Shown here: in pieces, positions 5,473-48,811 of the stretch
Position numbering within the stretch: the first letter of the stretch is position 1
How the letters are laid out: each line of letters starts with the position of its first letter
Assembly (NCBI GenBank): GCA_013388755.1
Contig: JACAEQ010000032.1
Coordinates: 62,001-126,000, forward strand
DNA: 64,000 nt
Reading direction: 5' to 3'
Origin: Chloroflexota bacterium
GTDB lineage: Bacteria > Chloroflexota > Chloroflexia > Chloroflexales > Roseiflexaceae
Position numbers and translations under genes: made by a program
Notes under the pieces: model-generated
Database searches by the model: none
Seen by the model: the letters and a program-made list of their open reading frames with translations, nothing else
What the model was told of the DNA's origin: nothing

Positions 5473-6812
<1,340 letters not shown>

Positions 6813-6857
6813 AGAGGCGCTCCCCCCGCATAATACTTTGAGAACTCTTTCACAATG

Positions 6858-6886
6858 ATTGTACCAGAACAGGCATAAAAATTCAA
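6858..6886 (-). promoter_or_regulatory. Probable atp operon promoter
   Basis: Reading the minus strand, TTGAAT (6881-6886) and TACAAT (6858-6863) are separated by exactly 17 bases, and the -10 is extended by TGG. Transcription would start near 6851, leaving a leader of about 38 bases before atpB. A second, weaker candidate lies upstream: TGCTATACT at 6951-6959 with TTGCGC 17 bases before it. Confidence 0.65.
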
Positions 6887-6998
6887 CCTGCTGTTGAGGT
6901 TGAACAGGCGCAGCACGCGCGCGTTGCACTACATGGGGTTCACCGGTGCGAGTATAGCATAGGTGAATTGAACGCGCAAACACCGAACGTCGGGTCAG

Positions 6999-7104
6999 TG
7001 TTCACACCTGGGGTCACACACGCGCCTGGGAGCGAGGGCGTCCCGCCCTCGGCGCGTCTACGCGGGCAAGATGCCCGCGCTCCCAGGAGACATGTGACCA
7101 CTTA
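6999..7104 (+). repeat. Dispersed cruciform repeat, family A, copy 1
   Basis: An approximately 106-base element also found at 40164-40270 (same strand) and 51855-51960 (opposite strand). An outer stem CCTGGGAGCG/CGCTCCCAGG encloses two smaller hairpins (GAGGGCG...CGCCCTC and GCGGGCA...TGCCCGC), and the ends carry TGTTCAC and an inverted TGTGACCAC/TGAACAC-like arm. It would fold as a three-way junction in DNA or RNA. It fills much of the gap between the atp promoter region and the next gene; nothing else coding is seen in 6887-7182. Confidence 0.9.
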
Positions 7105-7182
7105 CAACGTCGGAACGCTGGACGTTGCAACGTGAGGAGGGGTGAACAGCCCTGACCTGTTCCAGGCCAGGCGCCCGGCGCG

Positions 7183-8121
7183 TCAACCGAGCAGCTCCTG
7201 AATGTCGCGGATGGCGCGCTTGGCATACACCCACACAGAGCCGATCTTTGCCGGCGTCCCCGATTTATCGAAGACAATCACCAGCATAAAACGCTGCACG
7301 ATATCGAAGCAGTACAGATCGTAGTGACTACCCTCGTGCACATACAGCGCCGACGACTCGGTTTCGCGCAGCATCTGCGTGATCTGCCCGGCCGTTGAGA
7401 AACTCGTCGACAACAACGGCAGCAGCACCATCGTCGGCAACCCGACCGTCAGGCCGGTTTCAGCCAGCACCATGCCGGCCCGATCGGCGAGGAGGATGCA
7501 TTTTGACCCGACATCGCGATCGAGCGCTTCCATGCGCAACCGGATCGCGCGCTGATCTTCAGCGGTCAGCACCAGGGCACCTTCACGCCTTCGCGCCGGG
7601 CGCGGAGTTGCGGGCTCCGCTGCGCGTGCGGGTGGTTGCGCCGGCGTACGTGTCGGGCGCGCCGCTGCGGGTTGCGCGGGGCGGGGCGCCGGTTCCGGCT
7701 TCGGGCGCGGCGCTTCGGGTTCCGGCGCTGGCGCTTCGGGTTCCGGCGCCGGCGCGTTCAGCGCCTCACGCAACTCGGCATACAGCAAGTCGCGCAACTC
7801 ATCAGGCGGCACCGTACCATTCACAAACCGCTGCACGCCAAAGCCGGCCGCCTGCTGCGCCACCTGTGGATCAGGGTGACGACTCCAGAGCACCAGGCGG
7901 GTTGGCACGCCGAAATTCGGCAAGATCTCGGCCATCTCAACACCGCTCATGCCCGGCAATTGAACATTCGCGATAATCACGCCAGGAGGCGTATTGCGCA
8001 CTTCCCACAACGCATCATTCGCGGTCTCGAGCACCTGCACCTCAACATCACCGGAGAACTGGCCCGGCAGTGCGCGGAGTTCGTCGCTATCGCCTGGCAC
8101 GACCAGGAGTCGGTACGCCAT
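7183..8121 (-). CDS. Receiver-roadblock/LC7 (MglB-like) two-domain protein
   Basis: About 312 residues in three parts. Residues 1-120 resemble a response-regulator receiver (YRLLVVPGDSDEL, VIIANVQLPGMSG), but the phosphoacceptor position reads N in IIANVQLPG rather than Asp, and the acidic pair near the N-terminus is altered. A long Pro/Ala/Glu/Arg linker follows (about 120-205). The C-terminal 100 residues (ALDRDVGSKCILLADRAGMV, then a long beta-rich stretch) match roadblock/LC7 proteins, which regulate small GTPases. Start at 8121 gives MAYRLLVVPG; longer starts overlap the kinase gene 20 bases upstream. Probably the output partner of that kinase. No small GTPase gene is in view. Confidence 0.8.
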   Translation of the reverse strand: MAYRLLVVPGDSDELRALPGQFSGDVEVQVLETANDALWEVRNTPPGVIIANVQLPGMSGVEMAEILPNFGVPTRLVLWSRHPDPQVAQQAAGFGVQRFVNGTVPPDELRDLLYAELREALNAPAPEPEAPAPEPEAPRPKPEPAPRPAQPAAARPTRTPAQPPARAAEPATPRPARRREGALVLTAEDQRAIRLRMEALDRDVGSKCILLADRAGMVLAETGLTVGLPTMVLLPLLSTSFSTAGQITQMLRETESSALYVHEGSHYDLYCFDIVQRFMLVIVFDKSGTPAKIGSVWVYAKRAIRDIQELLG

Positions 8122-8141
8122 GAGACTGCTTCGCTTTCCCA

Positions 8142-9812
8142 CTAAGTTCGACGGAACGGCAGCGCAAACGAGAAGGTACTTCCCTGACCTTCGCTGCTCG
8201 CCACCCACACGGCTCCACCAAGCGAGGCGATCAACTCGCGCACCAGCGCCAGGCCAAGCCCGGCGCCACCACGCTCACGGGTAAGCGAGTCAGCGACCTG
8301 GTAGAATCGATCAAAGATCCGCGTTCGCTCATGCGCGGGGATGCCAATACCCGTATCATGCACCTCAACGACGACCCAGGGCAACGCGCGTAATACCAGC
8401 TGCGGCTGGATGATCGACTCATGCAACTCGACAAGCTCCTCGTACGAGCGCACATCAGCGGTCACAGTAATGCGCCCGTTCGACGGTGTGAACTTCATTG
8501 CGTTTGAGAGCAGGTGATTCAGCACCAGCAGTATTTTCTCACGGTCGCTGAGAAACAGAAGCTGTGTATCCGGCAGGGACACATCAAGCGTTTGCCCGGC
8601 CATTGCCGCCGACCCTCGAAGGTGGTTGATGGTCTGGTGGATCAGGTCGCCGAGATCGAGTGGCGCCAGCAGCGGCTGGGACTCACCCGTTTCGATATGG
8701 CGCAAGCTCACCATATCGTCCACAATTTCCTTGATACGCTGCGCACTCTCCATCACACGCTGCAGGTAATCACGCTGGTCGCCATCCACCTGATCGCGCA
8801 CCATCATGGTATAGCCCAGCACGATCGACAGTGGCGTGCGCAATTCATGGGATGCGATGGCGATGAACTCGCTCTTGAGCCGATCGAGTTCCTGGCGGCG
8901 CTGATAGGCATCATCAAGTTGACGATACAGGACGGCATTTCGCAGCGCAGCGCCGGCATGGTTTGCCAGCAACATCAACCCCTGTTGCACTCCCGGCAGC
9001 AGGATGCCCTCCTGTTCATCACACAGCAGCACGACGCCATTCATGTGCCCCTGGGCTCGCAACGGCACGGCAAGCGCCGCGCGTAACTCACGACCGCGGT
9101 ACGCGCCATACTGCTCTACGCCCCCTTGCAGGGCCTGCCTGGACACCAGGGCCCGCGCCGCCAGTTGCCGCCCCGGTTCGGTCAGTTCCGCCTCCGCCGG
9201 CATCGTTGCCGCCTGCACCAGTGCATCCCCATCGTCACCGAGCAACAGAAAGCCAAAACGGAAGCCGCTACGCTGGATCATCGCCTCGAGTACAATCCGC
9301 ACCAGTTCCGGCAGTTCCAGCGTCGTACTCAGCACTTCACTGATCGACAGCAACTGCTCGAGGGTGCGCAGGCGAAGATTATCTTGCAGAATGGAGCGCT
9401 TATGCAGCGCCTGGTCAACTGCCAGGCGCAACTGCTCAAGCTCGAACGGCTTCGACAGAAAGTCGGCGACACCGCGCCGCACCGACTGGTGCAGGTTCTC
9501 GAGCGACGCATAGCCGGTCATGATAATGATTGCGATCTCAGGATCAGCCTCGCGTGCAACTCGCGCCAGGTCGAGACCACTCATTGCCGGCATTTTGATG
9601 TCGGTCAGCAGCAGATCAAAGTGCTGGCCGCTATTGAACGCCGCAATCGCCACATGTGGATCGCTGGTGGCCATCACATCGTACCCGGCGCGTTGCAGGG
9701 TACGCGCACATACGTCGCACATGTGCTGTTCATCATCCACAATCAGCAAACGCGGCGACATACTGTTGTCGGCAAATGTTCCCGGAACGGCTGGATCGAT
9801 GGCCTGACTCAT
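8142..9812 (-). CDS. Hybrid sensor histidine kinase: receiver-GAF-HisKA-HATPase
   Basis: 556 residues. The receiver domain is N-terminal (LLIVDDEQ; phosphoacceptor D71 in LLLTDIKMP; KPF motif at about 121). A GAF domain spans about 150-300. The dimerisation box FIAIASHELRTPLS carries His322. The ATPase domain has the N box LNHLLSNAMKFT and the G boxes DTGIGIP and GGAGLGLALV. No membrane helix is seen, so it is cytoplasmic. Having the receiver in front of the kinase suggests that phosphorylation by another kinase tunes it. It lies 10 bases from the gene upstream and 20 bases from the receiver-roadblock gene downstream, implying a three-gene operon. Confidence 0.93.
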   Translation of the reverse strand: MSQAIDPAVPGTFADNSMSPRLLIVDDEQHMCDVCARTLQRAGYDVMATSDPHVAIAAFNSGQHFDLLLTDIKMPAMSGLDLARVAREADPEIAIIIMTGYASLENLHQSVRRGVADFLSKPFELEQLRLAVDQALHKRSILQDNLRLRTLEQLLSISEVLSTTLELPELVRIVLEAMIQRSGFRFGFLLLGDDGDALVQAATMPAEAELTEPGRQLAARALVSRQALQGGVEQYGAYRGRELRAALAVPLRAQGHMNGVVLLCDEQEGILLPGVQQGLMLLANHAGAALRNAVLYRQLDDAYQRRQELDRLKSEFIAIASHELRTPLSIVLGYTMMVRDQVDGDQRDYLQRVMESAQRIKEIVDDMVSLRHIETGESQPLLAPLDLGDLIHQTINHLRGSAAMAGQTLDVSLPDTQLLFLSDREKILLVLNHLLSNAMKFTPSNGRITVTADVRSYEELVELHESIIQPQLVLRALPWVVVEVHDTGIGIPAHERTRIFDRFYQVADSLTRERGGAGLGLALVRELIASLGGAVWVASSEGQGSTFSFALPFRRT

Positions 9813-42756: not shown

Positions 42757-43213
42757 GAGTCTATCCGAACAACGCTACGCCACCTGTCATTGCGCGGAGC
42801 GTCAGCGACCGCCTGCAGCGAGCGCCGCGTGGCTGAAGTAATCTACCGGCGCGAGAGGAGATTGCGTCGCTGCGCTCGCAATGACCCGAAAGATGGGCGA
42901 TTGCGTCGCTGCGCTCGCAATGACCCGAAAGATGGGCGATTGCGTCGCTGCGCTCGCAATGACATCCAGGCGTCTCCTGTCATTGCGAGGAGCGTCAGCG
43001 ACGAAGCAATCTCAGCGTGTACTGGTAGATTGCGTCGCTGCGCTCGCAATGACCCGAAAGATGGGCGATTGCGTCGCTGCACTCGCACTAACAGCCAGAC
43101 GCCCCCTGTCATTGCGCGGAGCGCGAGCGACCGCCTGCAGCGAGCGCCGCGTGGCTGAAGCAATCTCCTTGCTGCGCTCGCAATGACATCCAATCCGTCA
43201 TTCGGACAGCCTC
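42757..43213 (+). repeat. Expanded family B element with 39-base tandem units, copy 6
   Basis: A 457-base block ending in GAGTCTATCCGAAC on the left and TTCGGACAGCCTC on the right. The right-arm motif has been amplified: units of exactly 39 bases (ATTGCGTCGCTGCGCTCGCA plus ATGACCCGAAAGATGGGCG) start at 42861, 42900, 42939, and again at 43029 and 43068. Left-arm motifs near 42790, 42980 and 43108 alternate with them, so several nested foldbacks are possible. Confidence 0.92.
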
Positions 43214-43222
43214 TTCATGCGG

Positions 43223-43816
43223 CTACTGGCGCGCAAGGAGGGCGCGAGCGTGTGCATACGCCTCAGGCGTATCAATATCGAGCAGCGGGCGATCATCATC
43301 AAACGCCACACACTGAACACGCGCCGGATCGCGCGCAACAACGGCCCGCGCTCCCTGATCGCCTGTGACGGCCAGCAACTCATTGAATACGGTGCGATCG
43401 AAGAGCACGGGGTGACCGCGCACACCATTATAGACCGGCGCAACAATCGGTGCACGGCATGCGCGCCACGCGGTGGTCAACGCTTCAATGATGGCAACGG
43501 TAACGAACGGCTGATCGCCAAGGCACACGAGCGCGGCGGCGGCATCGGCCGGCAGTGCGCTCACCCCGGCGCGTAACGACGAACTGAGGCCGCCGGCAAA
43601 TCCTGGATTATGCACGATGCGCAAGCGCAGGTCGTGTAGCGCATCTGTGACTGCCGCCGCCGCGCTGCCAGTGACGACGATTACCTCGTCAAGTGCTGCC
43701 GCGAGCGTAGCTTCAGCCACAACGCGTACCAGCGGGCGCCCGTTCCAGTCCAGTAGTTGTTTTGGCCGGCCCATGCGTGATGAGGAGCCGGCAGCAAGCA
43801 CAATTCCGCAGATCAT
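43223..43816 (-). CDS. MobA-like nucleotidyltransferase (Moco cytidylyltransferase type)
   Basis: 197 residues. The NTP-transferase signature LAAGSSSRMGRPKQLLDW is at 7-24, followed by VVTGSAAAAV, NPGFAGGLSSSLRAGVSALP and CLGDQPFV, then GVRGHPVLFD, all typical of MocA/MobA-like proteins that attach CMP (or GMP) to molybdopterin. The GG-L-S-SSLRAG pattern favours the cytidylyl (MocA/xanthine-dehydrogenase-type) branch. Its ATG overlaps the last codon of the upstream P-type ATPase remnant (TGATG). Mo-hydroxylase genes that would need it are not in the window. Confidence 0.9.
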   Translation of the reverse strand: MICGIVLAAGSSSRMGRPKQLLDWNGRPLVRVVAEATLAAALDEVIVVTGSAAAAVTDALHDLRLRIVHNPGFAGGLSSSLRAGVSALPADAAAALVCLGDQPFVTVAIIEALTTAWRACRAPIVAPVYNGVRGHPVLFDRTVFNELLAVTGDQGARAVVARDPARVQCVAFDDDRPLLDIDTPEAYAHARALLARQ

Positions 43817-44226
43817 CACTGTCTCCACCCATCGGCATGGCGCAGCCACTTGTAGATCTCCATCACAACCAGGATGACAGAGCCCAGTGCACCGAAGATC
43901 AACCAGTCCTGCAGCTGCGGCGACGTTGTACGCAGCAGCGCCTGCACTGGCGGGAAATACATCGCAATCAGGTGTATACCGAACGCAACTGCCATGCCAA
44001 TCATCAGAAGAGTATTATTGCGCAACGGCACCCGGAACGCAGAGCGGTATTCCGAGCGGCAGTTCAGGACATGATAGAACTGCATCAGCACCAGCAAGTT
44101 GAACAGCATCGTCCGGGCGATCCCTTCCTCGACCCCGTTATTGCCATGTGCCAGGGCAGAGCAGGCCGATCGCCAGCACACTGATGATAGCGATCCGGCC
44201 ATCACCGGCATTCTACCGGTTAGAAC
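43816..44226 (-). pseudogene. Remnant of a cation-transporting P-type ATPase (C-terminal end)
   Basis: The last 100 codons match the C-terminal membrane region of Ca2+-type P-ATPases: GVEEGIARTMLFNLLVLMQF, then YHVLNCRSEYRSAFRVPLRN and two or three membrane helices to the stop. Upstream of about 44160 the homologous reading continues in another frame (RIAIISVLAIGLLCPG) and runs into a stop, so there is a frameshift. At about 44226 homology ends at a family B repeat. The pump body, phosphorylation site and ATP-binding domains are missing. The gene is dead unless this tail serves to couple translation of the MobA-like gene. Confidence 0.85.
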
Positions 44227-44326
44227 AAAGCGAGCGACGCGTGGCTGAAGCATGCGCCGCTTGCGCCGCTCGATTGCGTCGCTTCGCGTGCAATGCCATC
44301 CAACCATCCGTTGTTCGGCCAGGCAC
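44227..44326 (+). repeat. MITE-like element, family B, copy 7 (degenerate)
   Basis: Retains AGCGACGCGTGGCTGAAGCA, the CGATTGCGTCGCTTCGC arm and a right end TTGTTCGGCCAGGCAC. It borders the truncated ATPase. In 44327-44582 I see only a possible extended -10 (below). Confidence 0.75.
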
Positions 44327-44506
44327 AGAACAGCTTCCGGGAAGCGTGCAACGCGGCGCCCAACCCGGCTCACGGACACTCAGCACGCAATCGGGTCCAC
44401 AGACTCATCAGGCGGAGCCTCTCGGAAGCTCGCTCGTGGCAGGTTCACGCGTACTCTTTCGTAACACCTGTAGGGCGATCCGGCGCTGCCGTCGGCAGAT
44501 AAATCA

Positions 44507-44582: not shown

Positions 44583-45341
44583 GTGACAACACTACTACTG
44601 GTTCGTCATGGTGCAAACGACTGGGTTCATGGCCGCCTCGCGGGTCGCATTCCGGGTGTGCATCTGAACGACGAAGGACGCCGCCAGGCCGCCAATGTCG
44701 CGGCGCGGCTCGCGGATCTGCCGATTGAAGCGGTTTATGCCAGCCCGCTGGATCGTACCGTCGAGACGGCACAGGCGATCGCCGGGCCACGTGGCCTGCC
44801 GCTACGCCTCGTCGAGGCGCTGCAGGAGGTCGACTATGGCGAGTGGCAGGGCGCTGAGCTCAAAGAGTTGTACAAGCATGAACTCTGGCCCGGCGTACAA
44901 CATTACCCCAGTGGTACGCGCTTCCCAAACGGCGAGACGCTTGGCGAGACGCAGATACGCATCGTAACGGCGCTCGACGCATTACGGGTGCGCCATCCAA
45001 AAGGGTTGATCGTCGTTGTGTCGCACGCCGACGCAATACGCCTTGCGATTGCCTACTACGTTGGGATCCACGTCGATCTTTTTCAGCGCCTCGAAGTGGC
45101 GACATGTTCGGTGACGGCGATTGGTTTTACTCGCATGGGCCCGCGATTGCTCGCGTACAACGACACCGGATCGCTGGCGCACCTGAAACCGAAGCCGGAG
45201 GAAGCAAAGGCCACGGAGCAGGAGCAGGCGGCGCAGACCGGCCCGGCGCCTGGCGCAACGCCGGAGCAGAACTCGGTAGAGTCGACCAATGGGGTTGAGG
45301 CGCCGCTGGCCACTGCGCCAGGCGAGGCGGCGCAGCAGTAG
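44583..45341 (+). CDS. Histidine phosphatase (phosphoglycerate-mutase-like), MSMEG_4193-type
   Basis: 252 residues. The RHG motif (His9) is in LLLVRHGANDW, the second catalytic histidine in VVVSHADAI, and the conserved block YASPLDRTVETAQAIAG between. The last 60 residues are a disordered Glu/Ala/Gln/Pro-rich tail. It starts with GTG at 44583 with AAGGA upstream. It is followed by DUF3090 and SCO1664-family genes; from memory the same trio is found in actinobacteria, where its role is unresolved. Substrate unknown; phosphatase rather than mutase is likely. Confidence 0.9.
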   Translation: MTTLLLVRHGANDWVHGRLAGRIPGVHLNDEGRRQAANVAARLADLPIEAVYASPLDRTVETAQAIAGPRGLPLRLVEALQEVDYGEWQGAELKELYKHELWPGVQHYPSGTRFPNGETLGETQIRIVTALDALRVRHPKGLIVVVSHADAIRLAIAYYVGIHVDLFQRLEVATCSVTAIGFTRMGPRLLAYNDTGSLAHLKPKPEEAKATEQEQAAQTGPAPGATPEQNSVESTNGVEAPLATAPGEAAQQ

Positions 45342-45384
45342 CGCCGGCGCGCATTCGTCGCACCGGCACAGACAATCGAACCAT

Positions 45385-45897
45385 ATGGCAAAGTTTACCT
45401 ACGACCTTGATCCCGTGACGCGCATCACAGCAAGCGCAGTCGGCGCCCCTGGCCAGCGCGTCTTCTACATCCAGGCGCGGCGCGGTCGTGAGCTGGTTTC
45501 ATTAACAGCCGAGAAAGAACAGGTACGAGCGCTGGCCCAGGCAATCGACCGGTTACTGGAGGAACTGGCCGAAAAAAACCCGCTGCTCTCGTCGTCGGAC
45601 GATCTGTTGCTGGCAAGTGACATGAACCTGGAAGAACCGATCGAGTCACGTTTCCGTATTGCTCAGATGGGGATCGGGTACGACGCCGATCGTGATATGG
45701 TCATTCTGGTGATGCAAGGGTACCGCGACGACGACGAGGGCACTGAGGCACCGACGGCACGGTTTGGCGCTTCGCGGCAGCAGATGCGCGCGTTGAGCGA
45801 GCATGCCGCCAATGTGGTGGCGCGCGGTCGCAGGATCTGCGGCAATTGTGGCCGCCCTATGGATCCTGGCGGTCACTTCTGCCCCCAGATGAACTGA
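45385..45897 (+). CDS. DUF3090 family protein with C-terminal zinc motif
   Basis: 170 residues. The family core YDLDPVTRITASAVGAPGQR, FYIQARRGRELVSLTAEKEQ and FRIAQMGIGYDADRDMVILV is clear. The C-terminus carries CGNCGRPMDPGGHFCPQMN, a probable small zinc site (C, C, H, C). No catalytic function is known. It follows the histidine phosphatase by 43 bases and precedes the SCO1664-type gene by 163 bases on the same strand. The ATG at 45385 lacks a strong ribosome site. Confidence 0.9.
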   Translation: MAKFTYDLDPVTRITASAVGAPGQRVFYIQARRGRELVSLTAEKEQVRALAQAIDRLLEELAEKNPLLSSSDDLLLASDMNLEEPIESRFRIAQMGIGYDADRDMVILVMQGYRDDDEGTEAPTARFGASRQQMRALSEHAANVVARGRRICGNCGRPMDPGGHFCPQMN

Positions 45898-46060
45898 GAT
45901 CAACTCAGGCGCAAGGCGCAACACGATCCATGCGAGGGGCGCCGTGCGGTGGAGCGGTGGAGCCGTATGGAGCAGCCAATATCAGTGCAGATCGCCGTAC
46001 ACGGCATCCTGATGCGCTTGAGTAAGCCGACACATGCGGTGTTCTCAAAGGGAATGTGAC

Positions 46061-46801
46061 ATGAGCGATCACCGTCATGACCTGGGCATTGGTGAAGTAC
46101 TGGCACTGCTTGCCAGCGGGCACATGGAGATACAGGGCATGATGCCCTGGAGCAGCAACTACACCTTGCTGGTCACCGTGCGCGAGGGTGACGTGCAGGG
46201 CCTCGCCGTCTACAAACCACGTCGCGGCGAACGACCATTGTGGGATTTCCCGCGCGGCACGTTGTGCCAGCGCGAGTTCGCTGCGTTCCTGCTCAGCGAC
46301 GCGCTGGGCTGGTCGCTTGTTCCGCCAACCGTTCTGCGCGACGGGCCATATGGCATGGGGTCGGTGCAGCTCTATGTCGACTGCGATCAGGAAGCACACC
46401 TGTTTACCATGCAAAAAGAAGGCGGCTACGACGATCAGCTCGCGCGCCTGGCCGCTTTTGACGTGCTCTCGAATAACGCCGATCGCAAGAGTGGTCATTG
46501 CCTCAAAGGCGTTGATGGCCGGCTATGGGCAATTGATCACGGTATCTGTTTTCATGCCGAACCAAAGCTGCGTACCGTTCTGTGGGATTACGCTGGCGAG
46601 GCGATCTGTGATGACATCATGGCTGACCTGCGCACGTTGCGTGATGATGTTCGCGCAGGTGGGCGTTTCATTCGGGCGCTCGAAGGATTACTCGCGCCCG
46701 ATGAGGTGCGCGCGTTTCGTCGCCGCCTCGATCGCCTGATCGACTCTGGATGCTATCCCGATCCAGGGTCCGGGCGCAATATCCCCTGGCCTCCCGTATA
46801 G
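46061..46801 (+). CDS. SCO1664-family protein (PI3/4-kinase-like fold)
   Basis: 246 residues. Kinase-like features can be followed: a candidate ATP lysine in LAVYKPRRGERPLWDFP, a catalytic-loop-like NNADRKSGHCLKG, and a metal-loop-like WAIDHGICF. This matches the PI3/4-kinase-like SCO1664 family. Whether it phosphorylates lipid, protein or nothing is unknown. AAAGGGA precedes the ATG at 46061. Third gene of the trio with the histidine phosphatase and DUF3090; a kinase-like protein beside a phosphatase suggests a reversible phosphorylation circuit (inference). Confidence 0.9.
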   Translation: MSDHRHDLGIGEVLALLASGHMEIQGMMPWSSNYTLLVTVREGDVQGLAVYKPRRGERPLWDFPRGTLCQREFAAFLLSDALGWSLVPPTVLRDGPYGMGSVQLYVDCDQEAHLFTMQKEGGYDDQLARLAAFDVLSNNADRKSGHCLKGVDGRLWAIDHGICFHAEPKLRTVLWDYAGEAICDDIMADLRTLRDDVRAGGRFIRALEGLLAPDEVRAFRRRLDRLIDSGCYPDPGSGRNIPWPPV

Positions 46802-46862: not shown

Positions 46863-46989
46863 CGCCGACAAACCTGTTCCATCCATCACAATCCTGATCT
46901 GCGACCGACGATGACGCGGCCGCCGATTGATGCTGAGCCGCGTCGATGCCATCGCTGGCTGAATGCTGGAAGAAAGAGGAGAATGCAGA

Positions 46990-48393
46990 GTGGATGCTCA
47001 CCTGGGAACCGAGGCGCGCCCTGTGCGCGTCGCAATTGTTGGCGCCGGCCCGGCTGGTTTTTATGCTGCGGAGGCACTGCTCAAACAATCCAGTATTGTG
47101 TGTACGATTGACATGTTCAATCGCTTCCCAACTCCGTTCGGCCTGGTGCGCGAGGGTGTTGCGCCCGACCACCAGTCAATCAAGGCCGTCACCCGCATCT
47201 ACGATCGCATTGCTTCTCACCCACGTGTGCGCTACTTCGGCAATGTGACCTTTGGTAGCGATATTGTTCGCGAGGATCTGAAACTCTACTACGACCAGAT
47301 CGTGTATGCGGTCGGTGCGCAGGCCGATCGCCGCATGGGGATACCAGGCGAGGACCTGACAGGAAGCTACCCGGCGACAGTGTTCGTCGGCTGGTACAAC
47401 GGCCATCCAGACTATTGTGACATGGAGTTTGACCTGTCACACGAGCGCGCGGTGGTCGTGGGCAATGGTAATGTGGCAATCGACGTGGCGCGCATCCTGG
47501 TCACTGACCCGGACGAACTGGCGAAGACCGACATTGCTGATTATGCGCTGGCTACCCTGCGCCGCAGCAAGATTCGTGAAGTGGTGATGCTTGGACGTCG
47601 CGGACCGGCCCAGGCAGCATTCACAAACGCAGAAATCAAAGAACTGGGAGAGCTTGCAGGCGTCGATGTGATTGTCGATCCTGCCGACCTGGAACTCGAT
47701 AAACTGAGCCAGGCGCAGGTTGCCGATGACAAATCGGTTGCGCGCAATGTTGAGATTCTGCGCGCCTATGCCGCGCGCAGCGAGCATACGGCACCGCGGC
47801 GTATCCGGATGCGTTTCCTCACATCGCCGGTCGAACTGATCGGCGACAATAACCGCGTGGCGCTGGTGAAAGTCGAACGCAACGAACTGGTGGTTGACAG
47901 GCAAGGTGGATTGCGCGCCAGGGGCATTGGTGTCTACGATACAATTGAGGCGGGGCTGGTGCTCCGCTCCGTCGGCTATCGTGGCGTACCGCTGCCTGGT
48001 GTGCCGTTCGAGGAAGGCACCTTTATCATCCCGAACATCAATGGGCGGGTGATCGGCGCGCGTGATGGTGAACCCGTCTCTGGCGAATATGTGGTAGGCT
48101 GGGCAAAGCGTGGCCCTTCAGGCGTGATTGGCACAAACAAGCCCGACGCAGTTGCCACGGTCGCATCAATGATGGAGGATCTGCCCACGCTGGTGGGCAT
48201 TCCGGACGGTAACCGCGATCCGGAGCGCATCGTTGCGTTGCTGCACGAGCGCAAACCCGACTTTGTCACCTATGCCGACTGGAAACGGCTCGATGCGTAT
48301 GAAACGGCGCGCGGGGCCGAACAGGGTCGCCCTCGCGTGAAAGTGACAACCGTTCCTGAGATGCTGGCGGTCATCCACGATCGCGCATCATAG
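46990..48393 (+). CDS. Ferredoxin/adrenodoxin-NADP+ reductase (FprA type)
   Basis: 467 residues of the adrenodoxin-reductase-like flavoprotein family, which moves electrons between NADPH and ferredoxin. The FAD motif VAIVGAGPAGFYAAEALL, the family signature NRFPTPFGLVREGVAPDHQ, the NADP motif VVGNGNVAIDVARIL and the C-terminal GWAKRGPSGVIGTNK are present. I prefer the GTG at 46990, which follows AGGAG; an ATG nine codons upstream is open but lacks a ribosome site. A stem-loop follows the stop. It likely supplies reductant to ferredoxin-dependent reactions. Confidence 0.93.
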   Translation: MDAHLGTEARPVRVAIVGAGPAGFYAAEALLKQSSIVCTIDMFNRFPTPFGLVREGVAPDHQSIKAVTRIYDRIASHPRVRYFGNVTFGSDIVREDLKLYYDQIVYAVGAQADRRMGIPGEDLTGSYPATVFVGWYNGHPDYCDMEFDLSHERAVVVGNGNVAIDVARILVTDPDELAKTDIADYALATLRRSKIREVVMLGRRGPAQAAFTNAEIKELGELAGVDVIVDPADLELDKLSQAQVADDKSVARNVEILRAYAARSEHTAPRRIRMRFLTSPVELIGDNNRVALVKVERNELVVDRQGGLRARGIGVYDTIEAGLVLRSVGYRGVPLPGVPFEEGTFIIPNINGRVIGARDGEPVSGEYVVGWAKRGPSGVIGTNKPDAVATVASMMEDLPTLVGIPDGNRDPERIVALLHERKPDFVTYADWKRLDAYETARGAEQGRPRVKVTTVPEMLAVIHDRAS

Positions 48394-48686: not shown

Positions 48687-48811
48687 GTTCGCGGAGCGTG
48701 AGCGACTGCCTGCGGCGAGCCCAGCGTGGCTAAAGTAATCTCCTCTCGCGCAGGTAGATTGCTTCGCTTCGCTCGCAATGACATCCAACCATCCGTCATT
48801 CGGACAGGCTT
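48687..48811 (+). repeat. MITE-like element, family B, copy 8
   Basis: Contains GCGGAGCGTGAGCGACTGCC, the arm AGATTGCTTCGCTTCGCTCG and a right end TTCGGACAGGCT. The left terminus and TTA flanks are not visible. Confidence 0.8.

Follow-up and report, generated by a model that had tools for sequence, protein, structure and literature searches.

The question raised by this locus is what three genes of different families, lying in a row and in one direction at positions 44583-46801 of the window (the whole 64,000-nucleotide stretch of DNA analysed), might do together. The gaps between them are about 43 bases (phosphatase to DUF3090) and about 163 bases (DUF3090 to SCO1664), and an in-frame ATG at 46034 is a possible alternative start for the last gene. 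The window's genome (G000) has a single SCO1664 gene and carries the trio on contig C7.

44583..45341, + strand: histidine phosphatase of the MSMEG_4193/Rv2135c family (TIGR03848); GTG start, 252 aa
45385..45897, + strand: DUF3090 protein (PF11290/TIGR03847) with a predicted PUR/Whirly-fold core and a C-terminal CxxC...GHxC zinc-type tail; 170 aa
46061..46801, + strand: SCO1664-family probable kinase (TIGR03843) with a predicted PI4K-type-II/Fam20/HipA-like fold; 246 aa

Family membership was assigned to proteins scoring above the curated NCBIfam cut-off, as all three do: 262 bits against 203.85 for the phosphatase (TIGR03848), 201.6 against 117.25 for the DUF3090 protein (TIGR03847) and 306.6 against 172.4 for the SCO1664 protein (TIGR03843). 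The corresponding Pfam scores are 178 bits to PF00300 for the phosphatase and 159 bits, against 27, to PF11290 for the DUF3090 protein. This confirms that the trio is genuine, and that the phosphatase, zinc-tailed DUF3090 and SCO1664-type identities given in the first-pass annotation were correct for each gene. Its description of the genome as Chloroflexota-like also fits, as the nearest relatives of the window's SCO1664 gene in our tree are those of Chloroflexaceae and Oscillochloridaceae.

The surroundings of the trio have features of their own. Imperfect dispersed repeats of about 90-110 bases (42793-43207, 44230-44324 and 48690-48809) flank it outside its coding genes, in several copies having 69-89% identity to the reference copy. 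Just upstream, on the opposite strand, 43816-44379 (-) encodes a stand-alone 187-aa protein that matches P-type cation ATPases in the C-terminal membrane domain only (PF00689, 99.9 bits). Directly 3' of the trio, 46963-48393 (+) encodes an FAD-NAD(P) oxidoreductase resembling the glutamate synthase small subunit and ferredoxin-NADP reductase, which was not seen as a conserved neighbour.

The SCO1664 protein was modelled by AlphaFold2 with 61 sequences (pLDDT 92.9) and the model compared with solved structures by VIA-align. The top match was PI4K-II-alpha (Z 19.7, rmsd 3.4, 225 residues), a fold shared over nearly the whole protein at 18% identity, and the sequence profile has a weak but significant match to PI4K-II-beta (E 1.9e-4). 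The same atypical kinase fold is found at lower Z in Fam20 (about 16), CtkA (14.5) and HipA (11.5), which act mostly on proteins, and also on sugars. Unlike HipA-type systems, no toxin-antitoxin partner gene was seen. The catalytic Lys and Glu, the catalytic-loop Asp and the metal-binding Asp are invariant in 61/61 sequences of the family, and in the window's gene the motifs are placed as follows.

46214..46216, + strand: codon for the nucleotide-binding Lys of the VYKP motif, numbered K53 in alignment A3; unchanged in 61/61 sequences
46460..46489, + strand: catalytic loop DVLSNNADRK (D135-K144 in alignment A3), with D, N, N, D, R and K invariant in 61/61
46532..46543, + strand: metal-binding motif IDHG (DFG-like), with the Asp numbered D160 in alignment A3 unchanged in 61/61 sequences

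The protein thus combines the kinase fold (Z 19.7) and the catalytic residues of the PI3/PI4-kinase-like superfamily, but since its score to Pfam PI3_PI4_kinase (PF00454) is 14.1 bits, under the gathering score of 27.1, we term it PI4K-like and not a PF00454 member. No membrane-like segment was detected in any of the 61 family members, which are acidic (mean net charge -7.6). Judged by the predicted fold, the invariant catalytic residues and the absence of a membrane-like segment, SCO1664 is very probably a soluble kinase with catalytic activity. The window's protein has about 50% identity to the actinobacterial kinases, while those of Chloroflexota often align to the profile in two pieces, split near positions 105-130.

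For the phosphatase, the motifs RHG (residues 8-10), SPLDR (54-58), EVDYGEW (82-88) and SHAD (147-150) support a complete set of catalytic residues; a C-terminal tail of low complexity spans about residues 200-252. Phosphoserine phosphatase 1 is among its nearest solved structures. The Mycobacterium tuberculosis member of the family, Rv2135c, is an acid phosphatase without phosphoglycerate mutase activity (PMC3866925); it has RHA where the window's protein has RHG. The first-pass annotation had proposed that the kinase-like/phosphatase pairing serves a reversible modification of a small molecule or protein. Complete catalytic residues in both enzymes bear out that part of the proposal, and its overall interpretation is partly supported.

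If the modification is reversible phosphorylation, its target might be a lipid or its soluble headgroup, with SCO1664 acting as a kinase on phosphatidylinositol or on a soluble inositol phosphate, a step that the histidine phosphatase would reverse. The best fold match and the profile match, both to PI4K type II, favour such a switch, as could the myo-inositol-1-phosphate synthase found in 166/181 Chloroflexota genomes. However, almost all genomes have the synthase, whether or not they carry the trio, so that its presence does not discriminate, and we set aside an inositol dependence of the trio on this ground. Three genomes that are 98-100% complete (G012, G024 and G142) have trio genes and no synthase match. 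The likeness to a lipid kinase is one of predicted fold, in a protein of about 246 aa that has no hydrophobic segment, and Fam20, CtkA and HipA use the same fold on proteins or sugars. We therefore consider an inositol-directed switch unlikely, though the strongest of the competing explanations.

The DUF3090 model (pLDDT 85.4) has a core topology of bbbb-a-bbb-a and, by VIA-align, is most similar to PURA (PUR-alpha; Z 9.5, 112 residues, rmsd 3.2), followed at lower values by two cyanobacterial proteins without known function (Z 6.7-6.8), Whirly (Z 6.0) and MRP1/2 (Z 5.8). Almost all of the top matches belong to the PUR, Whirly or MRP proteins, with the first match outside this group at Z 4.4, and DUF3090 accordingly models as a PUR/Whirly fold plus a zinc-type tail (residues 152-166: C152, C155, H164, C166). 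At the sequence level it has no detectable similarity to these proteins: its profile found no relative and no PUR protein among the sequences of solved structures, and Foldseek with the model returned no match under E 0.001. Five residues (G20, G23, R25, F27 and E43) show no variation among 106 relatives. Position 39 is Ser or Thr in 86/94 copies at kinase-bearing loci compared to 5/12 elsewhere; we keep it only as a lead to a phosphosite because the pattern is confounded by ancestry and the residue is not invariant.

PUR proteins bind nucleic acid (PMC4764581), which raises the possibility that DUF3090 holds an RNA or DNA that is phosphorylated by the kinase and dephosphorylated by the phosphatase. 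In addition to the fold and the zinc-type tail, the invariant R25-x-F27, which starts strand 2, is near the R65/F68 motif of Pur-alpha (PMC4764581) by topology, not by residue superposition. Against this, DUF3090 is strongly acidic (mean net charge -11.4) and positive in 0/107 copies, all being neutral or acidic; the kinase is acidic too, and the fold likeness is the one for which both Foldseek and the sequence comparison were negative. While the fold agrees with a plain nucleic-acid binder, the charge speaks against it. As DUF3090 is never basic, a role as an adaptor seems more likely for it, and we regard a nucleic-acid switch as improbable.

Whether the three genes belong together at all was addressed by their distribution in an evenly drawn sample of 149 Actinomycetota genomes and a sample of 181 Chloroflexota genomes. 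In Actinomycetota, the same 68/149 genomes carry SCO1664 and DUF3090, with zero discordance, and all 68 carriers have a TIGR03848-type phosphatase, adjoining DUF3090 in 68/68. The association is total in that sample and looser in Chloroflexota, where SCO1664 is present in 100 genomes and DUF3090 in 117 (both 94, SCO1664 only 6, DUF3090 only 23, neither 58; Fisher p 1.6e-21, shared ancestry ignored). TIGR03848 phosphatases above the cut-off are found in 28/181 Chloroflexota, all 28 of which have both other genes. Some members of this phylum have DUF3090 by itself or beside another type of phosphatase, and five of the six SCO1664-only genomes are from one family; the single-gene occurrences are mostly clade-wise and so represent few independent events. 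Conversely, G055 (97% complete) and G176 (99%) have neither gene while their family mates carry both, which makes two within-family co-losses. The first-pass annotation had described the trio as conserved as a set and had named independent occurrence as the outcome that would count against it; the profiles, uncorrected for shared ancestry, proved dependent in both phyla.

Gene order agrees with this distribution. A scan with one genome per species gave at least 587 SCO1664 relatives, and the best 80 of these at least 587 loci, which we compared, were from Chloroflexota, Actinomycetota, three Rokubacteria MAGs, one Tectomicrobia MAG (phosphatase not adjacent) and one unclassified MAG. The presence of the set in two phyla, as the first-pass annotation had it, thus holds, and extends to Rokubacteria and Tectomicrobia MAGs. 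The order phosphatase, DUF3090, SCO1664 on one strand is shared by 59 of the best 80 loci, far beyond chance; in another 17 of the 80, DUF3090 and SCO1664 adjoin, and four lack an adjacent DUF3090, three of them having it elsewhere in the genome. The SCO1664 tree has four label changes for four phyla, against a minimum of three, and inheritance therefore looks mostly vertical; the Rokubacteria nest among Actinomycetota, where a binning error is possible. DUF3090 is dispensable at some loci and hence not obligatory, because kinase and phosphatase are paired without it in an actinobacterium that also has a complete trio (G199, second pair at L161 5943-7263) and at L086, where DUF3090 lies elsewhere in the genome, and because our control genome, Corynebacterium glutamicum, has matches for kinase and phosphatase and none for DUF3090.

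The wider neighbours differ freely between lineages. Those that recur are CysRS/MshC and PAC2 and, judged by eye, UppP-, RarA/MgsA-, uracil-DNA-glycosylase-, FrhB- and thioredoxin-reductase-like genes; as they recur in sublineages only, we set them aside as a clue to function.

Such free variation, and the clades with DUF3090 or SCO1664 alone, would be expected if these were three unrelated housekeeping genes held together by operon inertia and common ancestry. Yet the zero discordance among 149 Actinomycetota argues for a functional tie, as do the Chloroflexota genomes with both genes: these are adjacent in 63/94, and in the other 31/94 both are kept though distant or on different contigs (contig splits may mask some adjacency). 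Open reading frames that fuse the phosphatase to DUF3090 also speak against separate functions, so we give this explanation little weight.

Those fusions (L103, 8702-9883, Pfam-confirmed; L090, 8287-9405) bear on the role of DUF3090 itself. In L090 the fused DUF3090 part is without the zinc tail, and a complete second DUF3090 comes next. Five genomes from a single Chloroflexota family, all lacking SCO1664 (G021, G040, G083, G099 and G107), have a Cys-based DSP/PTP phosphatase gene directly 3' of DUF3090, and G065 has two DUF3090 genes, one with a DSP/PTP-type Cys phosphatase in the same position. Pfam assigned PTP-SAK/CDKN3 to three of these phosphatases, whose best solved relatives are the protein phosphatases SsoPTP, CDKN3 and DUSP23. 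As a Cys phosphatase here takes the place of the histidine phosphatase, DUF3090 keeps a phosphatase partner while the superfamily of that partner changes. A helix-turn-helix regulator-like gene (by eye) was seen upstream of the DUF3090-DSP pair in L141 (5297-8715), L143 (6221-9506) and L144 (3660-6347). In two other loci from SCO1664-less genomes (L145, 6230-8220; L146, 6968-8638), a divergent DUF3090 that does not keep Ser/Thr39 directly follows a D-2-hydroxyacid dehydrogenase gene; Pfam confirms the dehydrogenase in L145, and in L146 it was identified by eye.

The remaining explanation is that the trio is an accessory to mycothiol synthesis, for example for an unassigned phosphatase step. 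The actinobacterial mshC region has the same three families in the same order of phosphatase, DUF3090 and kinase (Rv2135c-Rv2134c-Rv2133c); we take Rv2134c and Rv2133c to be members of the two uncharacterised families (TIGR03847 and TIGR03843, respectively). SCO1664 adjoins mshC there, and a link to mycothiol has been proposed (PMC4255298). Consistent with that proposal, MshC is above its cut-off in 12/149 Actinomycetota, all 12 being trio carriers, and is beside SCO1664 in 11/12. As a general explanation the link is very improbable and we reject it, because MshC above the cut-off is absent from 56/68 trio carriers in Actinomycetota, making the link local to mycothiol makers. There is no mshC beside the window's trio: the best MshC-like match of its genome is below the MshC cut-off of 485, lies on a different contig (L181 6218-7369 (-), G000:C54:8217-9368) and is matched equally well by the models for CysRS (360 bits) and MshC (358 bits). 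This genome has two CysRS-like genes. An ordinary CysRS-type gene is near the trio in four related Chloroflexota (L070, L071, L072 and L078; about 6700-8180, -), a placement reminiscent of mshC in Actinomycetota and probably due to one ancestral event.

The reading we favour, with a probability of about 45%, is that the trio is a reversible-phosphorylation module in which DUF3090 serves as phosphatase adaptor; three genes travelling together through two phyla point to an uncharacterised on/off switch. The soluble SCO1664-type kinase would phosphorylate a target that is more likely to be a protein than a phosphoinositide, and the MSMEG_4193-type histidine phosphatase would take the phosphate off again. 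DUF3090, acidic and with no recognisable catalytic site, may be a non-enzymatic adaptor, possibly phosphorylated itself, which would bind the phosphatase and so bring both enzymes to the same target. Co-occurrence, gene order, fusions, the Cys-phosphatase neighbour, intact motifs and predicted folds were each obtained computationally here; from them we infer a common substrate of kinase and phosphatase, contact between DUF3090 and the phosphatase, and a protein as the substrate. The fold matches to Fam20, CtkA and HipA, mostly protein kinases, are in favour of the module, whereas the closest fold, PI4K-II, is that of a lipid kinase and argues against a protein target. Also against the module are the 17 of the best 80 loci (of at least 587) that are without an adjacent phosphatase, and the 23 Chloroflexota genomes with DUF3090 and no SCO1664 and six with the reverse. 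The more specific proposal of a new signalling module common to Chloroflexota and Actinomycetota, with a PI4K-type-II-like, protein-directed kinase and a DUF3090 zinc adaptor that recruits either a histidine or a Cys-based DSP phosphatase, is possible but doubtful.

The families themselves are already catalogued (NCBIfam TIGR03848, TIGR03847 and TIGR03843), and the window's trio adds a copy. The NCBIfam descriptions presumably already group the three as a trio, with Chloroflexi mentioned under TIGR03843. In the literature on SCO1664, DUF3090, Rv2133c/34c/35c and MSMEG_419x we found no functional study of the kinase or of DUF3090, nor any measurement of activity, interaction or substrate for either protein. 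MSMEG_4192 and Rv2134c are, we assume, the DUF3090 gene. Rv2134c came up as a hit when BCG mutants were screened with rifampicin (PMC11329110), and MSMEG_4192 appears in a dibucaine transposon screen and in a ClpC1 interactome (PMC10127668, PMC10433963). The novelty suggested for an uncharacterised set therefore does not stand as such, each family being curated and SCO1664 being a published actinobacterial signature protein (PMC4255298). The present analysis adds the exact co-occurrence, the second type of phosphatase beside DUF3090, the phosphatase-DUF3090 fusions, fold assignments for two of the proteins and a weakening of the mycothiol lead.

These results assign DUF3090 a fold, weaken a misleading mycothiol lead and name concrete pairs for testing. 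The trio occurs in roughly half of the genomes sampled from two large phyla, and its members include Streptomyces and mycobacterial genes. If it does act as a phosphorylation switch, bacteria would have a further conserved signalling system, whose kinase belongs to a class so far represented among them mainly by HipA-type and effector kinases.
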